A DNA stretch of 22,059 nucleotides from the IMG/VR virus record IMGVR_UViG_3300021131_000054, positions 1-22,059 of that record; one strand, given 5' to 3'. Source of the stretch: a virus. A program made the translations under genes and the position numbers. Below the pieces are notes generated by a model. It was given only the letters and a program-made list of their open reading frames with translations, was not told where the DNA came from and ran no database searches. Positions 409 through 16,941 of this stretch are shown here, piece by piece; position 1 is the stretch's first letter; each line of letters begins with the position of its first letter.

Positions 409-1152
409 TTATTCGTGATCTTCGTATTTCATCTTAGCCAAGATATAGTCCTTGACCAAACTTGAACGTACAATGTCATCTGCTGTGAATTCAATTCGTG
501 TGAATGAACTCATATGCATTGCAATATCAAAGAATTTCAAAATGCCCGACATATCGTTCTTTTTCTTATTTAGGTCAGTCTGCCTGTAATCTCCACACCA
601 AATGATCTTGGATCGATATCCGACCCGTGTCATTACTGTATCAATCTCTTCAAATGTCAGATTCTGCATCTCATCAACAATGATGATTGCATCGTCAAAG
701 GACATACCCCGAATGAACGATGTAGAGATGAATTCAACATAACCCTGTTCTTCCAGTCTCTGATATGCGTCTTTACGACCAAATAGAGTCTCACAGATTT
801 GCTGATAGGGTTGTTGGAAGATTTCCATCTTCTCTGTTACATCACCCGGAAGATGACCAATCTCTCTTGACTGGACGGCTGAACGAACAATAATGATCTT
901 GTTGAATGGGTTTGCCTTATCCAACACTTCTTCTAATGCCTTATACAATGCACAGAAGGTCTTGCCTGTTCCTGCTACTCCGTGTAATGCAACAAAGTAA
1001 TCACCTTGTTTATATGCATCAAAAAACTTCTTTTGATTTTCAGTTAGAGGTGAGAAAGTCTTGAGATCATCTATCCTTATTTTTAGTGAATTAGTTCTGG
1101 ATTCATTTGCTGAAATTTCTACTACGGTCGCAGACTTTCTTTTTGTTGACAT
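409..1152 (-). CDS. phoH: PhoH-like P-loop ATPase
   Basis: This 247-residue protein has Walker A GVAGTGKT at residues 58-65, the PhoH signature IIIVRSAVQSREIGHLPGD around 86-104, Walker B DDAIIIVDEMQN at 153-164 and a GDYRQTDL sensor-like motif at 187-194. Together they identify the PhoH family, close in length to the phage type, which lacks extra domains. PhoH proteins are ATPases related to helicases. Phage PhoH is common in marine and T4-like phages, but its role is unsettled (RNA metabolism or phosphate stress have been proposed). A GGGAG Shine-Dalgarno lies 5 nt before the ATG. It is divergent from the homing endonuclease at 1248, whose late promoter lies in the shared gap. Confidence 0.92.
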   Translation of the reverse strand: MSTKRKSATVVEISANESRTNSLKIRIDDLKTFSPLTENQKKFFDAYKQGDYFVALHGVAGTGKTFCALYKALEEVLDKANPFNKIIIVRSAVQSREIGHLPGDVTEKMEIFQQPYQQICETLFGRKDAYQRLEEQGYVEFISTSFIRGMSFDDAIIIVDEMQNLTFEEIDTVMTRVGYRSKIIWCGDYRQTDLNKKKNDMSGILKFFDIAMHMSSFTRIEFTADDIVRSSLVKDYILAKMKYEDHE

Positions 1153-1181
1153 AAAATCTCCCTTTTTTTATCACCTATTAT

Positions 1182-1189
1182 TATAAATA
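1182..1189 (+). promoter_or_regulatory. T4-type late promoter box TATAAATA in front of homing endonuclease 1
   Basis: The exact octamer TATAAATA is the known T4-family late promoter -10 element, which needs no -35 box. It stands 59 nt before the ATG at 1248. The expected start of transcription, about 5-7 nt downstream, would put the hairpin at 1193-1222 at the very 5' end of the mRNA. The equivalent position before the second endonuclease (16223-16230) carries CATAAATA. No sigma factor gene for late transcription is visible in this window. Confidence 0.6.
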
Positions 1190-1192
1190 AGT

Positions 1193-1222
1193 GTAGGTCA
1201 CCAGATTGCAGTCTGCACCTAC
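1193..1222 (+). promoter_or_regulatory. 5' leader hairpin of homing endonuclease 1 mRNA
   Basis: GTAGGT (1193-1198) pairs with ACCTAC (1217-1222). Inside it CAGA (1202-1205) pairs with TCTG (1212-1215) around the 6-nt loop TTGCAG. The two stems are joined by an internal loop of three nt on the left (CAC) and one on the right (C). The hairpin at 16234-16263 has exactly the same geometry with different paired bases, which supports a real RNA structure. It is followed by ACTCTAACA and an AAAGGAA ribosome site, both shared with the second gene. Confidence 0.7.
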
Positions 1223-1247
1223 TCTAACATTGTAAAGGAATGTCAGC

Positions 1248-2009
1248 ATGAATATATATTCAATTTATAAAGCCACCAATAAAATTACTGGTAAAATTTA
1301 TATCGGTTTTGATTCAAATTGGCCAAAAAGAAAAAAAAGACATTTATCCGATAGTTTTAATAATACTTCTAGAGGATACAATGATGTTTTCCATAAAGCT
1401 ATAAGAAAATATGGTAAAGATTCATTTGAATGGGAAATCATCTATCAGTCTTTAGATGGTGAATATTGCAAGAATATAATGGAAAAACATTTCATATCTG
1501 AATATAACAGTTTCATAAATGAAAAGAATTCAAATGGTTATAATATGACACTTGGTGGTGATGGAATGTTAGGTTTTAAACATTCTCAAGAATCTAAAAA
1601 TAAAAATTCTATCTCTTGTGGCAAAAACTTTAGAGTTTGGCATAAAAATGGTCATATTGTTTCAGGTAAACATATTAAAAATTTCTGTTCAGAAAATAAC
1701 TTAGAGTATAATTCATTTAAGTTACTATTAAAAGGTCATATGTTTTCTTACAGAGATTTTTATCCTTATGATAATGAAATTGACATCTCTGAAGTATTAG
1801 AAAAATACAAAGAAAAAATAAAAGTTTCTATGGATACTATGGGTGAAAAACATTCAAAAATTTACACCTTATTATCTCCAAATAATACACTAATCACATT
1901 TAAAAATTTAGCCAAATTTGCCAGGGATAATAATTTGAATCCACAGTCACTAAAACATGTTGCAATGGGAAAAATAAAATCCAACAAAGGATGGAAATTA
2001 CCGGTTTAA
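1248..2009 (+). CDS. GIY-YIG homing endonuclease with NUMOD3 and IENR1-like repeats (1)
   Basis: The product has 253 residues. The GIY-YIG nuclease domain covers about 1-105: SIY at 5-7, YIG at 18-20, basic cluster with R28 and R31, candidate metal-binding Glu79 in IMEKHFI, and the GYNMTLGGDG ending typical of this family. A NUMOD3-like motif (GFKHSQESKNK) follows at 109-119. Two DNA-binding IENR1/NUMOD1-like repeats follow, near 131-168 and 205-251 (the second ends SNKGWKL). Such enzymes cut a target allele lacking the gene so that repair copies the gene in. It is a free-standing gene on the opposite strand to all neighbours and is visibly AT-rich. Its stop overlaps that of the convergent gene at 2006 (shared TTTAAA). 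The AAAGGAA ribosome site lies before the ATG. Confidence 0.93.
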   Translation: MNIYSIYKATNKITGKIYIGFDSNWPKRKKRHLSDSFNNTSRGYNDVFHKAIRKYGKDSFEWEIIYQSLDGEYCKNIMEKHFISEYNSFINEKNSNGYNMTLGGDGMLGFKHSQESKNKNSISCGKNFRVWHKNGHIVSGKHIKNFCSENNLEYNSFKLLLKGHMFSYRDFYPYDNEIDISEVLEKYKEKIKVSMDTMGEKHSKIYTLLSPNNTLITFKNLAKFARDNNLNPQSLKHVAMGKIKSNKGWKLPV

Positions 2010-2873: not shown

Positions 2874-4340
2874 TCAAGTCCAAACTCTGAAATTTTCCAG
2901 TGCGTTGGGGTGCTTCTTGTTAAATGGTCGATAGAACAAACTGTTCTTATCTTCTTCAGGACGCCAATCAGTTTCTACAAATGGTACAGGTCCAAGATAT
3001 GCTGTTGCGTGTTCTAGAATGAAATCATATGGTAAATCTTCAGGTTCAATATAACCACGGCGTGGATTTTGAATAGCCCACATCATCTCTGAATAGATTG
3101 ATGCAACCACTTGTAATGATGTTGCATTCTCACCAGGGATCAACTTGCGAGCCTCTTTGATATCCAATTGTGAACCGTACCAATATGATTTACCGTTCTT
3201 GCAAATCAACAACACACCAAGTTCATCCATACCTGAGATGATCTCATCTTTAATGATACGCTCTTTTGTTTGCATTGTCAACTCACGACCACGCAATTCA
3301 TGTACGGACGCAATTGCAGCATCGGTAGGTTGATACACATAGTAAACAGATGGGCGATAGTCTCCCTTCTCTGTTTGGAAGTATTCGGACATGGTAATGG
3401 CTTCAGAGTGTTGCACCAAGAAACCATTGTATGGTCCACCGTTAGGTACCCATGATTTCACCAATACTGACAAACCAGGTTGGTGCAAGAATGCAGTATG
3501 CCCTTGAATTGTACCACCTTCCAGTTCTTTGGGTTCATGTGTGCCATAACCCATTTCAGCAGGTGCTCGACCTTCTGCCCAAAATCCTTCACAAGACCAA
3601 GTATTGACAAACTCATCTTTCAGTTTAGGTTTATTAATGATCTGTGTATCACGTTCTGCAATTTGAATTACCTCGACACCTAGCTTCTTGGCTAATTGTG
3701 CCCAACCCTCTTTATCAGTTGGTGCTTCTACCTTGCGCCCTGCTTTTTCTGCAATCTTGATCATTGCAGCCTTTGTCAGATATGTTACCAATCCAGGATT
3801 TGCACCACCAGTTGATACGACAGTGGCAGCATTTGGATATTCTTTAGCCATGTCACGGACCATATTGTGAGTATGGTACAGAGTACGATCTTCCATCTTT
3901 GGGATCTTCTCGTCCTGCATATGACCCCAACGTTCCAATGAAGTATTTACATACATTACATCATTCTGCAAGCACCATTCGATGATATTCTTTGCAGAGA
4001 TATTCAAAGAAACATCAACAATAAAAGAACCTGGTTCTGTATATTGCTTCAGAACAGCCTTCATGTTGCTGGGAAGAATCTCTTTCTTGATATACTTTAC
4101 ACCATTTCCAGCATTGCGTTTGCGAAATAGCATACCATGGTTATCTTTTTCGATAACAGTGACTTTACTTGGATCATTGGTAATATGACGCAAAATCAGA
4201 GGTAGAATGGCTTGACCTACAGAACCGTAACCGATAATCAAAATCTTCTTGTCAAAATTGGCATGATTTGCTGATTTTTTTGGTTTTGTTGCTTCGGTAA
4301 TAGTTTGTGAAAATGACTTAAATGGCTGTAGTCCAGGCAT
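2874..4340 (-). CDS. hss: Homospermidine synthase with capsid-targeting-like N-terminal extension
   Basis: The 488-residue product matches homospermidine synthase, the NAD-dependent enzyme that makes homospermidine from putrescine/spermidine. It has a Rossmann motif IIGYGSVGQAI (residues 35-45), the STGGANPGLVTYLTKAAM segment, NTWSCEGFWAEGRAPAEMGYG in the middle, and a C-terminal end close to that of bacterial enzymes. Bacterial forms reach the Rossmann motif after about 15 residues; here there are 34. The extra segment FKSFSQTITEATKPKK resembles the T4 capsid-targeting peptide and contains a possible prohead-protease site ITE|A. A GGAG ribosome site precedes the only sensible ATG. It is the first gene of a three-gene run (to 2006). 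Enzyme identity is strong; packaging is inference. Confidence 0.88.
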   Translation of the reverse strand: MPGLQPFKSFSQTITEATKPKKSANHANFDKKILIIGYGSVGQAILPLILRHITNDPSKVTVIEKDNHGMLFRKRNAGNGVKYIKKEILPSNMKAVLKQYTEPGSFIVDVSLNISAKNIIEWCLQNDVMYVNTSLERWGHMQDEKIPKMEDRTLYHTHNMVRDMAKEYPNAATVVSTGGANPGLVTYLTKAAMIKIAEKAGRKVEAPTDKEGWAQLAKKLGVEVIQIAERDTQIINKPKLKDEFVNTWSCEGFWAEGRAPAEMGYGTHEPKELEGGTIQGHTAFLHQPGLSVLVKSWVPNGGPYNGFLVQHSEAITMSEYFQTEKGDYRPSVYYVYQPTDAAIASVHELRGRELTMQTKERIIKDEIISGMDELGVLLICKNGKSYWYGSQLDIKEARKLIPGENATSLQVVASIYSEMMWAIQNPRRGYIEPEDLPYDFILEHATAYLGPVPFVETDWRPEEDKNSLFYRPFNKKHPNALENFRVWT

Positions 4341-10902: not shown

Positions 10903-11921
10903 CACTTTTCTCCCATAAGAAACTTGTTACTGATAGCTTTGAAACTGGTGTAGTTTTGCCCATTGCGCTTGAACACCACACCTTCCCGTTCTACGTTATT
11001 ATTCAATGCTGACTTACCTTCTGCATTATCCAACAGATAATCAATGGTAGTACCTGTCAATGACATTTCTCTTTCCAACAGAGGAACATGAAGAACACCC
11101 GTAAGAATTGCCCAAGGGCGAACAGCCCAAGGTGACAGGTATTCTTGTTGATCGATGTTGAAGATATTATACAGATAGAACTTCTGCCCTGTCAATCCGT
11201 ATGGGTTACCTTGAATGCCTTCTCCAACAAGTTCACCTTGAAGTGCAAGATTGGCACCATGATCTGTGAGCATCTTTTCAAAACCCGCAGAGATAGCAGT
11301 CTTCCAGAACGCATTGTTCTCATCACGAACCAAATCAATATTCCGTGAGCATACACCGAATACGCCATTATTGAAATAGACGGTCATCGAAGAACCATCC
11401 AACTTCTCGGTAACTTCCCAAGTATTATATTCAGTATTCCAATGCTCAAGTTCTTTCTTCAGGTTCTGAATCCGTTCTTGGTCAGTCTTGCGAATGAAAG
11501 ACGGGAAAGATCCACGCATTACGCCAGCCAATTGAGCAGGAATAGGTGCTTCCCACTTTTGGATACCAAGAAGTTCAGACACATCCGCATCTTCACCCAA
11601 TTGTGCATTAACACCGTATACACCGATACCCAAGGGCAATAACAGACCTTGACTGACCTGCCCACGAAGTTTTACAGTACGCAGACGCTCACCCTTCAGA
11701 CCATTGTACTCACGGGGTTCCTTGCCCTTCGACAGGAACGGTGCAAGTCCAGTGGGAATCCAAGAATCAATCTCACAGTATACAGCAAGATCACCAGCGG
11801 TAAATTCACCCTTCTTGACTACAACCTTCCAACCACCTACAGTAGCTACCTCGATAGCATCTGCACCTGCAATAGGATTGATTGCGTCGATCTTACGAAT
11901 TGTTGCCATCTTGCGAGTCAT
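10902..11921 (-). CDS. RNA ligase (ATP-dependent, DRB0094/Rnl5-like)
   Basis: The 339-residue product contains the nucleotidyltransferase signature EKLDGSSMTVYF, with Lys173 as the adenylated residue. Other ligase motifs are ALQGELVGEGIQGNPY (motif III region), REGVVFKRN (motif IV) and SFKAISNKFL (motif V). The N-terminal 120 residues (MTRKMATIRKIDAINPIAGA onwards) form the OB-like domain typical of the Deinococcus DRB0094 type of RNA ligase, which seals nicks with a 3'-OH RNA end. It fits RNA or tRNA repair during infection. I chose ATG 11921 because GGAG lies 7 nt upstream; a TTG at 11933 is not needed. A strong promoter with the conserved upstream element (11951-12000) drives it. Confidence 0.9.
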   Translation of the reverse strand: MTRKMATIRKIDAINPIAGADAIEVATVGGWKVVVKKGEFTAGDLAVYCEIDSWIPTGLAPFLSKGKEPREYNGLKGERLRTVKLRGQVSQGLLLPLGIGVYGVNAQLGEDADVSELLGIQKWEAPIPAQLAGVMRGSFPSFIRKTDQERIQNLKKELEHWNTEYNTWEVTEKLDGSSMTVYFNNGVFGVCSRNIDLVRDENNAFWKTAISAGFEKMLTDHGANLALQGELVGEGIQGNPYGLTGQKFYLYNIFNIDQQEYLSPWAVRPWAILTGVLHVPLLEREMSLTGTTIDYLLDNAEGKSALNNNVEREGVVFKRNGQNYTSFKAISNKFLMGEK

Positions 11922-11950
11922 GTCAAACTCCAATCAATTAATATGTGATC

Positions 11951-16189: not shown

Positions 16190-16222
16190 AGGAAGTGAGT
16201 TATTCCTTGATATCACAATGTT

Positions 16223-16230
16223 CATAAATA
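16223..16230 (+). promoter_or_regulatory. Late promoter box CATAAATA in front of homing endonuclease 2
   Basis: It differs from TATAAATA by one base and lies 61 nt before the ATG at 16291. In both cases the following GTGTA starts the hairpin. The position relative to the hairpin is the same as at 1182-1189. Confidence 0.5.
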
Positions 16231-16233
16231 GGT

Positions 16234-16263
16234 GTATGCCGCGGCATTGGCGTGCCCGCATAC
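16234..16263 (+). promoter_or_regulatory. 5' leader hairpin of homing endonuclease 2 mRNA
   Basis: GTATGC (16234-16239) pairs with GCATAC (16258-16263). Inside, GGCA (16243-16246) pairs with TGCC (16253-16256) around the 6-nt loop TTGGCG. The internal loop is CGC on the left and C on the right. Geometry is identical to 1193-1222, with five of ten base pairs changed in a compensatory way. It is followed by TCTAACA and an AAGGAA ribosome site. Confidence 0.7.
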
Positions 16264-16290
16264 TCTAACAGTTTATAAGGAACTATCAGC

Positions 16291-16941
16291 ATGAATAATA
16301 TATATCAGAAAAACACAATATCAACCATTTACATGGCCACAAATAAGATAACTAAACTTTCATATATTGGATTTACAAGTTGTGATTTACTTCACCGAAT
16401 AAACGAACACAAATATGATAGTAAAAGAAGTGACACTTATTTTTATAGGGCGGCTAAAAAATATGGGTGGGATTCTTTTGAATGGATTATATTATATCAA
16501 TCATGGGACGTTGAACATTGCCATAAAATAATGGAAAGTTTTTTTATTTCAGAATATGATACCTATGAAAATGGTTATAACTCAACAATGGGTGGTGATG
16601 GGGTTAATTCTAAAACCATGTTAGATAGATGGTCTGATTCAAATTCACCATACAAAAAAATAAGTTATATCAAAAAACAATCAGAATCAATTAAGAAGTT
16701 ACATTTAGATGAAAATTCTGTTTACAAGTCTACTGCATATATTCAAAAACAAAAAAAAGTTCATATTGAAAAATATGGGTTAAAATTTATTGCAATTAGC
16801 CCTGATGGTACAATTTACAAACAAAAAGGTTTAAAAGAATTTTGTAAAGTACATAATTTAACACCACAGTGTGCAGGTCAAGTCTTAAAAGGTCACAAAC
16901 CTAGCCATAAAGGATGGTTATTCTACATTGATCCCATATAG
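16291..16941 (+). CDS. GIY-YIG homing endonuclease with IENR1-like repeats (2)
   Basis: The 216-residue product has the nuclease domain at about 10-105: TIY at 12-14, YIG at 25-27, basic residues R36 and H40, candidate metal ligand Glu82 in IMESFFI, and GYNSTMGGDG at 95-104. No clear NUMOD3 follows; instead a charged stretch (KKQSESIKKLHLDENS) and one IENR1-like repeat at about 168-210 (SPDGTIYKQKGLKEFCKVHN through SHKGWLF) are seen. It is clearly related to the protein at 1248-2009 (for example MATNKIT and YGWDSFEWIILYQSW). Its 3' end overlaps the convergent exonuclease gene by 24 nt. It is AT-rich and has the shared leader with hairpin. Confidence 0.93.
   Translation: MNNIYQKNTISTIYMATNKITKLSYIGFTSCDLLHRINEHKYDSKRSDTYFYRAAKKYGWDSFEWIILYQSWDVEHCHKIMESFFISEYDTYENGYNSTMGGDGVNSKTMLDRWSDSNSPYKKISYIKKQSESIKKLHLDENSVYKSTAYIQKQKKVHIEKYGLKFIAISPDGTIYKQKGLKEFCKVHNLTPQCAGQVLKGHKPSHKGWLFYIDPI

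Follow-up and report, generated by a model that had tools for sequence, protein, structure and literature searches.

A predicted antisense RNA carried in front of homing endonuclease genes of uncultured T4-like phages

Two endonuclease genes and the leader they share

Free-standing homing endonucleases need enough activity to spread without harming the phages that carry them, and how most of them are controlled is not obvious (PMC2988022). A 22,059-base IMG/VR virus record, analysed over its whole length (the window), raises this question twice. Its recognisable phage genes lie on the minus strand, among them a phoH gene whose product is nearest to PhoH of T4-like cyanophages (approximately 48–53% identity), and two GIY-YIG homing endonuclease genes lie on the plus strand (Table 1). 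A preliminary description of the window reported a box, a hairpin and a common stretch in front of both plus-strand genes. All three are present, and both copies match that description exactly in stem sizes, 3×1 internal loop, 6-nt loop and all five compensated pairs. What does this folded leader do, and which strand folds? Read along the plus strand, the element consists of a late box, usually 3–5 bases, hairpin 1, the stretch CTCTAACA, hairpin 2 with the Shine–Dalgarno (SD) sequence in its loop, CAGC, the start codon and TATTTAT over codons 2–4. Hairpin 2 takes forms such as ACATT-GTAAAGG-AATGT, CATA-AAAGGAC-TATG and CAAG-AAAGGAC-CTTG. The preliminary description had overlooked this second covarying hairpin around the SD, the conserved motif CAGC-N5-TATTTAT, which extends into the coding sequence, and the evidence, given below, that points to the opposite strand.

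Endonuclease gene 1 is an antisense insertion with a minus-strand operon gene on either side. The corresponding site is empty in four relatives (L275, L276, L290 and L297), in which the upstream gene is followed by approximately 30 bases and then by phoH; compared with this empty site, the window holds approximately 830 extra bases, made up of the RNA element and the endonuclease. The comparison bears out the earlier suggestion that the leader belongs to what moves. The leader, the predicted antisense gene and the endonuclease appear to travel as one unit, which has been joined to several unrelated endonuclease types. At two other loci (L278 and L281), the gene upstream of phoH apparently carries a different insertion in its last codons; the tail of that gene (RPREW-stop) lies after the insertion, and the covariance model described below (R1) has no match there. 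The window also encodes, on the minus strand, a 488-aa homospermidine-synthase-like protein with both saccharopine-dehydrogenase domains (2877–4340), a metabolic gene unusual in a T4-like phage, and an RNA ligase with a PHA02142 OB-fold domain (10905–11933).

Table 1 Features of the two element copies and neighbouring genes in the window
Feature	Position	Strand	Remarks
RNA family copies in the window	1178-1262 and 16219-16306		two copies found with the covariance model
phoH	409..1152	-	first operon gene downstream of the insertion on the minus strand
Predicted T4-type late promoter box of the endonuclease, copy 1	1182..1189	+	TATAAATA; predicted from sequence
Hairpin 1, copy 1	1193-1222	+ coordinates	6-bp stem, 3×1 internal loop, 4-bp stem, 6-nt loop
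Shine–Dalgarno AAGGA, copy 1	1235..1239	+	within the part complementary to hairpin 2′
Endonuclease start ATG, copy 1	1248	+	
GIY-YIG homing endonuclease gene 1	1248..2009	+	GIY-YIG E = 0.006; phrog_314 homing endonuclease E = 2.6e-23
Predicted antisense RNA, copy 1	1182..1247	-	~65 nt; 5′ end 1247 (GCUG...), two hairpins, U-rich tail; both ends predicted
Hairpin 2′, copy 1	1224..1246	-	8 bp, 7-nt loop CCUUUAC complementary to the SD region
Hairpin 1′, copy 1	1193..1222	-	6 bp, 1×3 internal loop, 4 bp, 6-nt loop
U-rich tail after hairpin 1′, copy 1	1182..1192	-	ACUUAUUUAUA; family forms ACUUUUAUUUAU, ACCUAUUUAU, AUUUUU
Predicted antisense late box, copy 1	1253..1259	-	ATATATA; one mismatch to ATAAATA; 5 bases before predicted +1
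Sense late box, copy 2	16223..16230	+	CATAAATA
Hairpin 1, copy 2	16234-16263	+ coordinates	
Shine–Dalgarno, copy 2	16277-16281	+	
Endonuclease start ATG, copy 2	16291	+	
GIY-YIG homing endonuclease gene 2	16291..16941	+	PF01541, 24.7 bits, exceeds cut-off
Predicted antisense RNA, copy 2	16223..16290	-	hairpin 2′ 16265-16289, hairpin 1′ 16234-16263; R2 64.1 bits
Weak antisense late box, copy 2	16299..16305	-	ATATATA; 8 bases from GCTG

A family of elements in phage genomes

Our search pattern, gapped and 21 bases long, was taken solely from the unpaired parts that the leaders share, stems excluded. It occurred in at least 119 stretches of viral contigs compared with 3 among bacterial and archaeal genomes totalling 257 billion bases; none of the latter three had the hairpins, and they are chance matches. 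The RNA feature is far beyond chance. A first pattern scan, which yielded mostly chance matches, was used solely through the covariance model. That model (R1) was built from 85 copies, and covariance-model searching of the fetched IMG/VR viral loci (E-values are rough) gave approximately 160 distinct copies, with up to 9 in one record (a 329-kb jumbo-phage record) and 8 in a 236-kb record. Copies found with the pattern share CTCTAACA, AAGGA and CAGCATGA by construction, so pairing counts as evidence in the first alignment and the conservation of these bases does not. Whole-record searches with the model were independent of the pattern, and the copies found in this way (loci L230–L269) have the same anatomy. 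A covariance search for further copies in other large phages had been named beforehand as a possible refutation of the leader; copies were found, and their pairs covary.

No Rfam 15 family scored above its gathering threshold in the window, and five loci with other copies returned an unrelated tRNA only, with nothing relevant at E-values of up to 10. Model searches of the whole genomes of phages T4, S-PM2, DSL-LC02, phiN3, RHph_TM30, ME01 and Fnu1 gave nothing significant (best E-value 0.05, 15 bits), nor did blastn searches for the element in named phages. The structured RNA appears to represent a widespread, previously uncatalogued family of uncultured T4-like phages.

The element stands almost always directly before a GIY-YIG or HNH homing endonuclease gene. 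Of 96 non-redundant downstream open reading frames (ORFs), 75 match phrog_314 (homing endonuclease), and members also match GIY-YIG, SegE, HNH, HNH_3 and NUMOD3; judged by domain and family, the downstream ORFs are probably homing endonucleases. Two apparently decayed copies in the 236-kb record G014 (L241:3001-3102 and L239:3001-3083) have no endonuclease ORF after them, and could reveal whether the RNA outlives the endonuclease. A related GIY-YIG gene of Sinorhizobium phage phiN3 (L366:661-1308) is likewise inserted antisense to the minus-strand genes on either side of it; a CTAAATA-like box precedes it, and the RNA element is absent.

Evidence for the folded strand

The stems, which were absent from the search pattern, pair in nearly every copy of the family, and in this respect the strong selection on RNA structure claimed at the outset holds. 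In the pattern-derived alignment, 9 of the 10 pairs of hairpin 1 change on both sides; covariation in the first alignment was 0.611 compared with 0.161 when shuffled (none of 500 shuffles was as high). RNA helices tolerate G·U but not A·C, and an A·C on one strand is a G·U on the other, so that the exceptions to Watson–Crick pairing point to the minus strand as the one that folds. Exceptions in hairpin 1 on the plus strand comprised 43 A·C cells and 4 G·U cells. Counted by sequence cluster (75–90% identity), there were 32–37 sense A·C events versus 4 sense G·U events, and a count of 33 to 4 gives P ≈ 5e-7 in a sign test. In the antisense reading of 159 unique copies, wobble-type cells were G·U in 305 cases versus A·C in 8. 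An alignment in antisense orientation (A6) had 98.7% of 917 cells paired, with 16 of 18 pairs changing on both sides and a covariation of 0.663 (shuffled, 0.209). For hairpin 2′, 98.8% of cells were paired and 6 of 8 pairs changed on both sides; one basal pair was an antisense G·U in all 51 aligned sequences, which is an A·C mismatch on the sense strand. Because its base holds this universal G·U, hairpin 2′ reaches 8 bp on the minus strand. In minimum-energy folding of both window copies, the antisense strand formed the two hairpins (z = −2.28 and −2.53), and the sense strand folded less well (z = −1.37 and −0.23). The conserved structure under selection almost certainly lies on the antisense strand, which is predicted to fold into conserved stem-loops, as is characteristic of cis-encoded antisense repressors. 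The covariation seen in the preliminary description is therefore real; its choice of the sense strand for the folded RNA is probably wrong, given that the non-Watson–Crick cells are A·C on the plus strand and G·U on the minus strand. Missing G·U pairs in a covariation analysis can thus reveal a structured RNA on the other strand.

The motif CAGC-N5-TATTTAT is kept before GIY-YIG, HNH and other endonucleases; where these phages have GIY-YIG genes without the element, the motif is missing too. It persists across proteins starting MNIY, MYL, MLF, MFSNTIY and MSATIF: some copies have a start codon ahead of CAGC (MFSNTIYY, MTSNTIY and MSATIF), and in others the box is in another frame (ATG TAT TTA; ATG TTA TTT ATT). 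Protein-level conservation of M-x-I-Y was considered and rejected, since these bases persist when they are read in another frame or when the start codon lies upstream. Retention despite shifts of start and frame indicates that the signal lies in the nucleotides rather than in the protein. The minus-strand reading of CAGC-N5-TATTTAT is (N)ATAAATA-N5-GCTG, that is, a T4-type late box NATAAATA five bases before an invariant GCTG, and the spacing between box and GCTG is 5 in 78 of 95 copies. In T4 late promoters, a TATA box of 8 bp precedes the start by approximately one helical turn (PMC2988020), and NATAAATA is the late-box form reported for cyanophage S-PM2 (PMC2984593). The antisense boxes are imperfect in both window copies, markedly so in copy 2, which has no consensus antisense box at the usual spacing.

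At the other end, hairpin 1′ is followed by a mean of 5.8 T in 9 bases. In the approximately ten copies with a separate sense box, this tail is mostly ATTTTT, and in several the sigma-70 promoter of the neighbour comes next. Termination after hairpin 1′ is a prediction: a simple terminator scan at hairpin 1′ called no terminator, and the internal loop weakens this hairpin as one. With minus-strand genes on both sides, the commonest arrangement (89 copies), a strong terminator at this point would silence the next operon gene unless a promoter of its own served this gene, as in some copies. At five loci (L234:3078-3106, and also L266, L177, L208 and L128), the element lies directly upstream of sigma-70-type promoters (a perfect TTGACA-17-TATAAT at L234), and the neighbour's promoter interleaves with the endonuclease late box.

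These features bear on the reading given in the preliminary description, in which the hairpins form the 5′ end of the endonuclease mRNA and stabilize it or gate its translation, as for T4 I-TevI and segB and Aeh1 mobE. In its favour, T4 endonucleases are known to be controlled by hairpins (PMC2988022), the loop of hairpin 2 contains the SD, and a sense late box adjoins hairpin 1 in 92 of 104 non-redundant copies (NNTAAATA, 3–7 bases before the hairpin). The sense strand, however, has A·C where G·U would be expected, down to the universal mismatch in hairpin 2, and folds more weakly; CAGC-N5-TATTTAT has no evident sense role and ignores the reading frame. The sense box also moves: among copies without an adjacent consensus box, 11 of 12 checked have one, mostly TATAAATA, 12–44 (~45) bases upstream of the hairpin, with hairpin and U-tract still joined. 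As hairpin and U-tract stay together while the box moves, the sense promoter is a separable part, and the hairpin in such copies is not at the extreme 5′ end of the sense mRNA. Wobble pattern, frame-independent minus-strand late box and U-rich tail all point to an RNA of the opposite strand rather than to the 5′ end of a sense late mRNA, and we consider a sense-strand leader improbable. Two related candidates were rejected. An I-TevI-like switch, in which the sense ATAAATA would pair with TATTTAT of codons 2–4 in read-through transcripts, does not explain why copies without an adjacent box keep TATTTAT; sense hairpin control of the I-TevI type does not suit an SD placed in a loop rather than a stem, or a structural bias towards the antisense strand.

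A candidate antisense repressor and its alternatives

With the structure and its strand bias, the frame-independent motif, the mobility of the unit and its association with endonucleases as the evidence, we estimate a probability of roughly 0.6 that the element is a small antisense RNA that represses the homing endonuclease. A late promoter in endonuclease codons 2–4, on the opposite strand, would direct synthesis of an RNA of approximately 65 nt starting 5′-GCUG (the complement of the CAGC beside the start codon), presumably as a discrete transcript late in infection. This RNA would fold into hairpin 2′ (approximately 8 bp, with a 7-nt loop that usually contains CCUU) and hairpin 1′ (6 bp, 1×3 internal loop, 4 bp) and finish in a U-rich end. 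Its complementarity to the leader of the endonuclease mRNA would be complete as far as the start codon, SD included, and the mRNA itself would come from the convergent late promoter beyond hairpin 1. Pairing of the antisense RNA with the leader, most likely through an initial loop–loop contact, would block ribosome binding or trigger decay of the mRNA, so that expression of a mobile gene whose product cuts DNA stays low and is damped with copy number. We infer the firing of both promoters, the RNA ends and the repression. In both window copies the folded region overlaps the leader and the SD up to the base before AUG, and the predicted RNA would thus be complementary to the translation start region of its target, as antisense repressors are; complementarity alone does not prove regulation, because any RNA that overlaps the leader is complementary to it.

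Gene orientation allows a different use of the minus-strand signals to be weighed. By ORF calling, 89 copies run against both neighbours and 21 are co-oriented with them, counts that are approximate (the second window copy was miscalled on one side). The promoter and hairpins might serve the operon gene that the insertion cuts off, which in the window is phoH, and supply it with a new late promoter and a structured, stable 5′ end. Hairpins at mRNA 5′ ends can stabilize mRNA; most copies lie antisense within an operon, often with a few tens of bases between hairpin 1′ and the start of the next minus-strand gene, and the empty site leaves no room for a promoter between the upstream gene and phoH. 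Yet the co-oriented copies retain the structure, the antisense wobble of hairpin 2 and the antisense box; they lie between uvsY and a UvsW-like helicase gene or beside head-closure genes, gp32 and terminase (before either of the last two). These copies serve no minus-strand gene, which argues against a promoter merely for the next operon gene; their strand evidence rests on hairpin 2, because hairpin 1 is almost without wobble (1 of 220 cells, of either kind). A U-rich tail after hairpin 1′ likewise suits an end rather than a leader, and several neighbours have their own sigma-70 promoter past the tail. An outward promoter with a structured leader is, in our judgement, unlikely.

Conserved sequence beyond pairing, found in the linker, the internal loop (GYG) and the hairpin base, could also reflect another minus-strand role, either as an RNA that acts in trans (a guide, a decoy for a protein or an anti-SD RNA) or as folded minus-strand single-stranded DNA used when the unit moves. 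In favour, the unit is mobile, with many copies, and G·T pairing would fit single-stranded DNA as well. Against this, a shared RNA–protein complex is unlikely for an element common to unrelated endonuclease types, a promoter-like box and U-rich tail fit a transcript rather than DNA, and matches to HEARO or any other Rfam family were absent; such roles seem improbable. To our knowledge, the core sequences bear no resemblance to a self-cleaving ribozyme or an attC-like site.

IS10 RNA-OUT/RNA-IN, ColE1 RNA I and R1 CopA are antisense repressors of mobile elements. The antisense RNA predicted here would share with RNA-OUT, RNA I and CopA its short length, its stem-loops, an opposing promoter inside the 5′ end of the mobile gene, and complementarity to the leader and ribosome-binding site of a DNA-acting enzyme. 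It differs in having two hairpins (with 7-nt and ~5–8-nt loops), T4-type late boxes and an association with homing endonucleases instead of a transposon or replicon, and is predicted from sequence. HEARO/OMEGA RNAs, which are guide RNAs associated with IsrB and IscB, are also structured RNAs beside a mobile nuclease gene; unlike the element they are much larger, and the genes here are of GIY-YIG and HNH homing types, with no Rfam match. In the literature searched, the only antisense precedent for phage homing endonucleases was CfrI of cyanophage S-PM2, which PMC2984593 (citing Millard et al. 2010) gives as approximately 225 nt, antisense to an endonuclease gene and psbA, with one confirmed locus and a function unknown. 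CfrI resembles the element as an antisense RNA of a T4-like phage overlapping a homing endonuclease gene, but at ~225 nt it runs over psbA too, and S-PM2 has no match to the present model. Phage homing endonucleases are otherwise controlled by sense hairpins, late promoters, autorepression and RNase processing, and RNA hairpins limit expression of T4 I-TevI, I-TevII, I-TevIII and segB, Aeh1 mobE and seg43(25) (PMC2988022). The hairpins of this I-TevI group likewise combine a late promoter with RNA structure at a homing endonuclease leader; they lie on the sense strand and mostly hide the ribosome-binding site in early read-through transcripts, whereas the element here is antisense, and T4 has no match to the model. 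By sequence, the element does not appear to be a member of the CfrI, sense-hairpin or RNA-OUT/RNA I/CopA systems.

Tentatively, we suggest that the element may define a class of mobile-element regulator that is new, in which a self-contained gene for an antisense RNA travels with many kinds of homing endonuclease in T4-like and jumbo phages, damps each copy and perhaps cross-silences related copies in the same or a co-infecting phage, comparable to the multicopy inhibition of IS10. RNA identity was 0.65 within records versus 0.60 between them, values that do not discriminate cognate-only from cross-acting RNAs. The model makes a precise prediction, of two RNA ends and one promoter. A covarying antisense RNA on many unrelated endonucleases would be a general, portable solution to their control, and antisense control of mobile DNA would extend from transposons and plasmids to homing elements.
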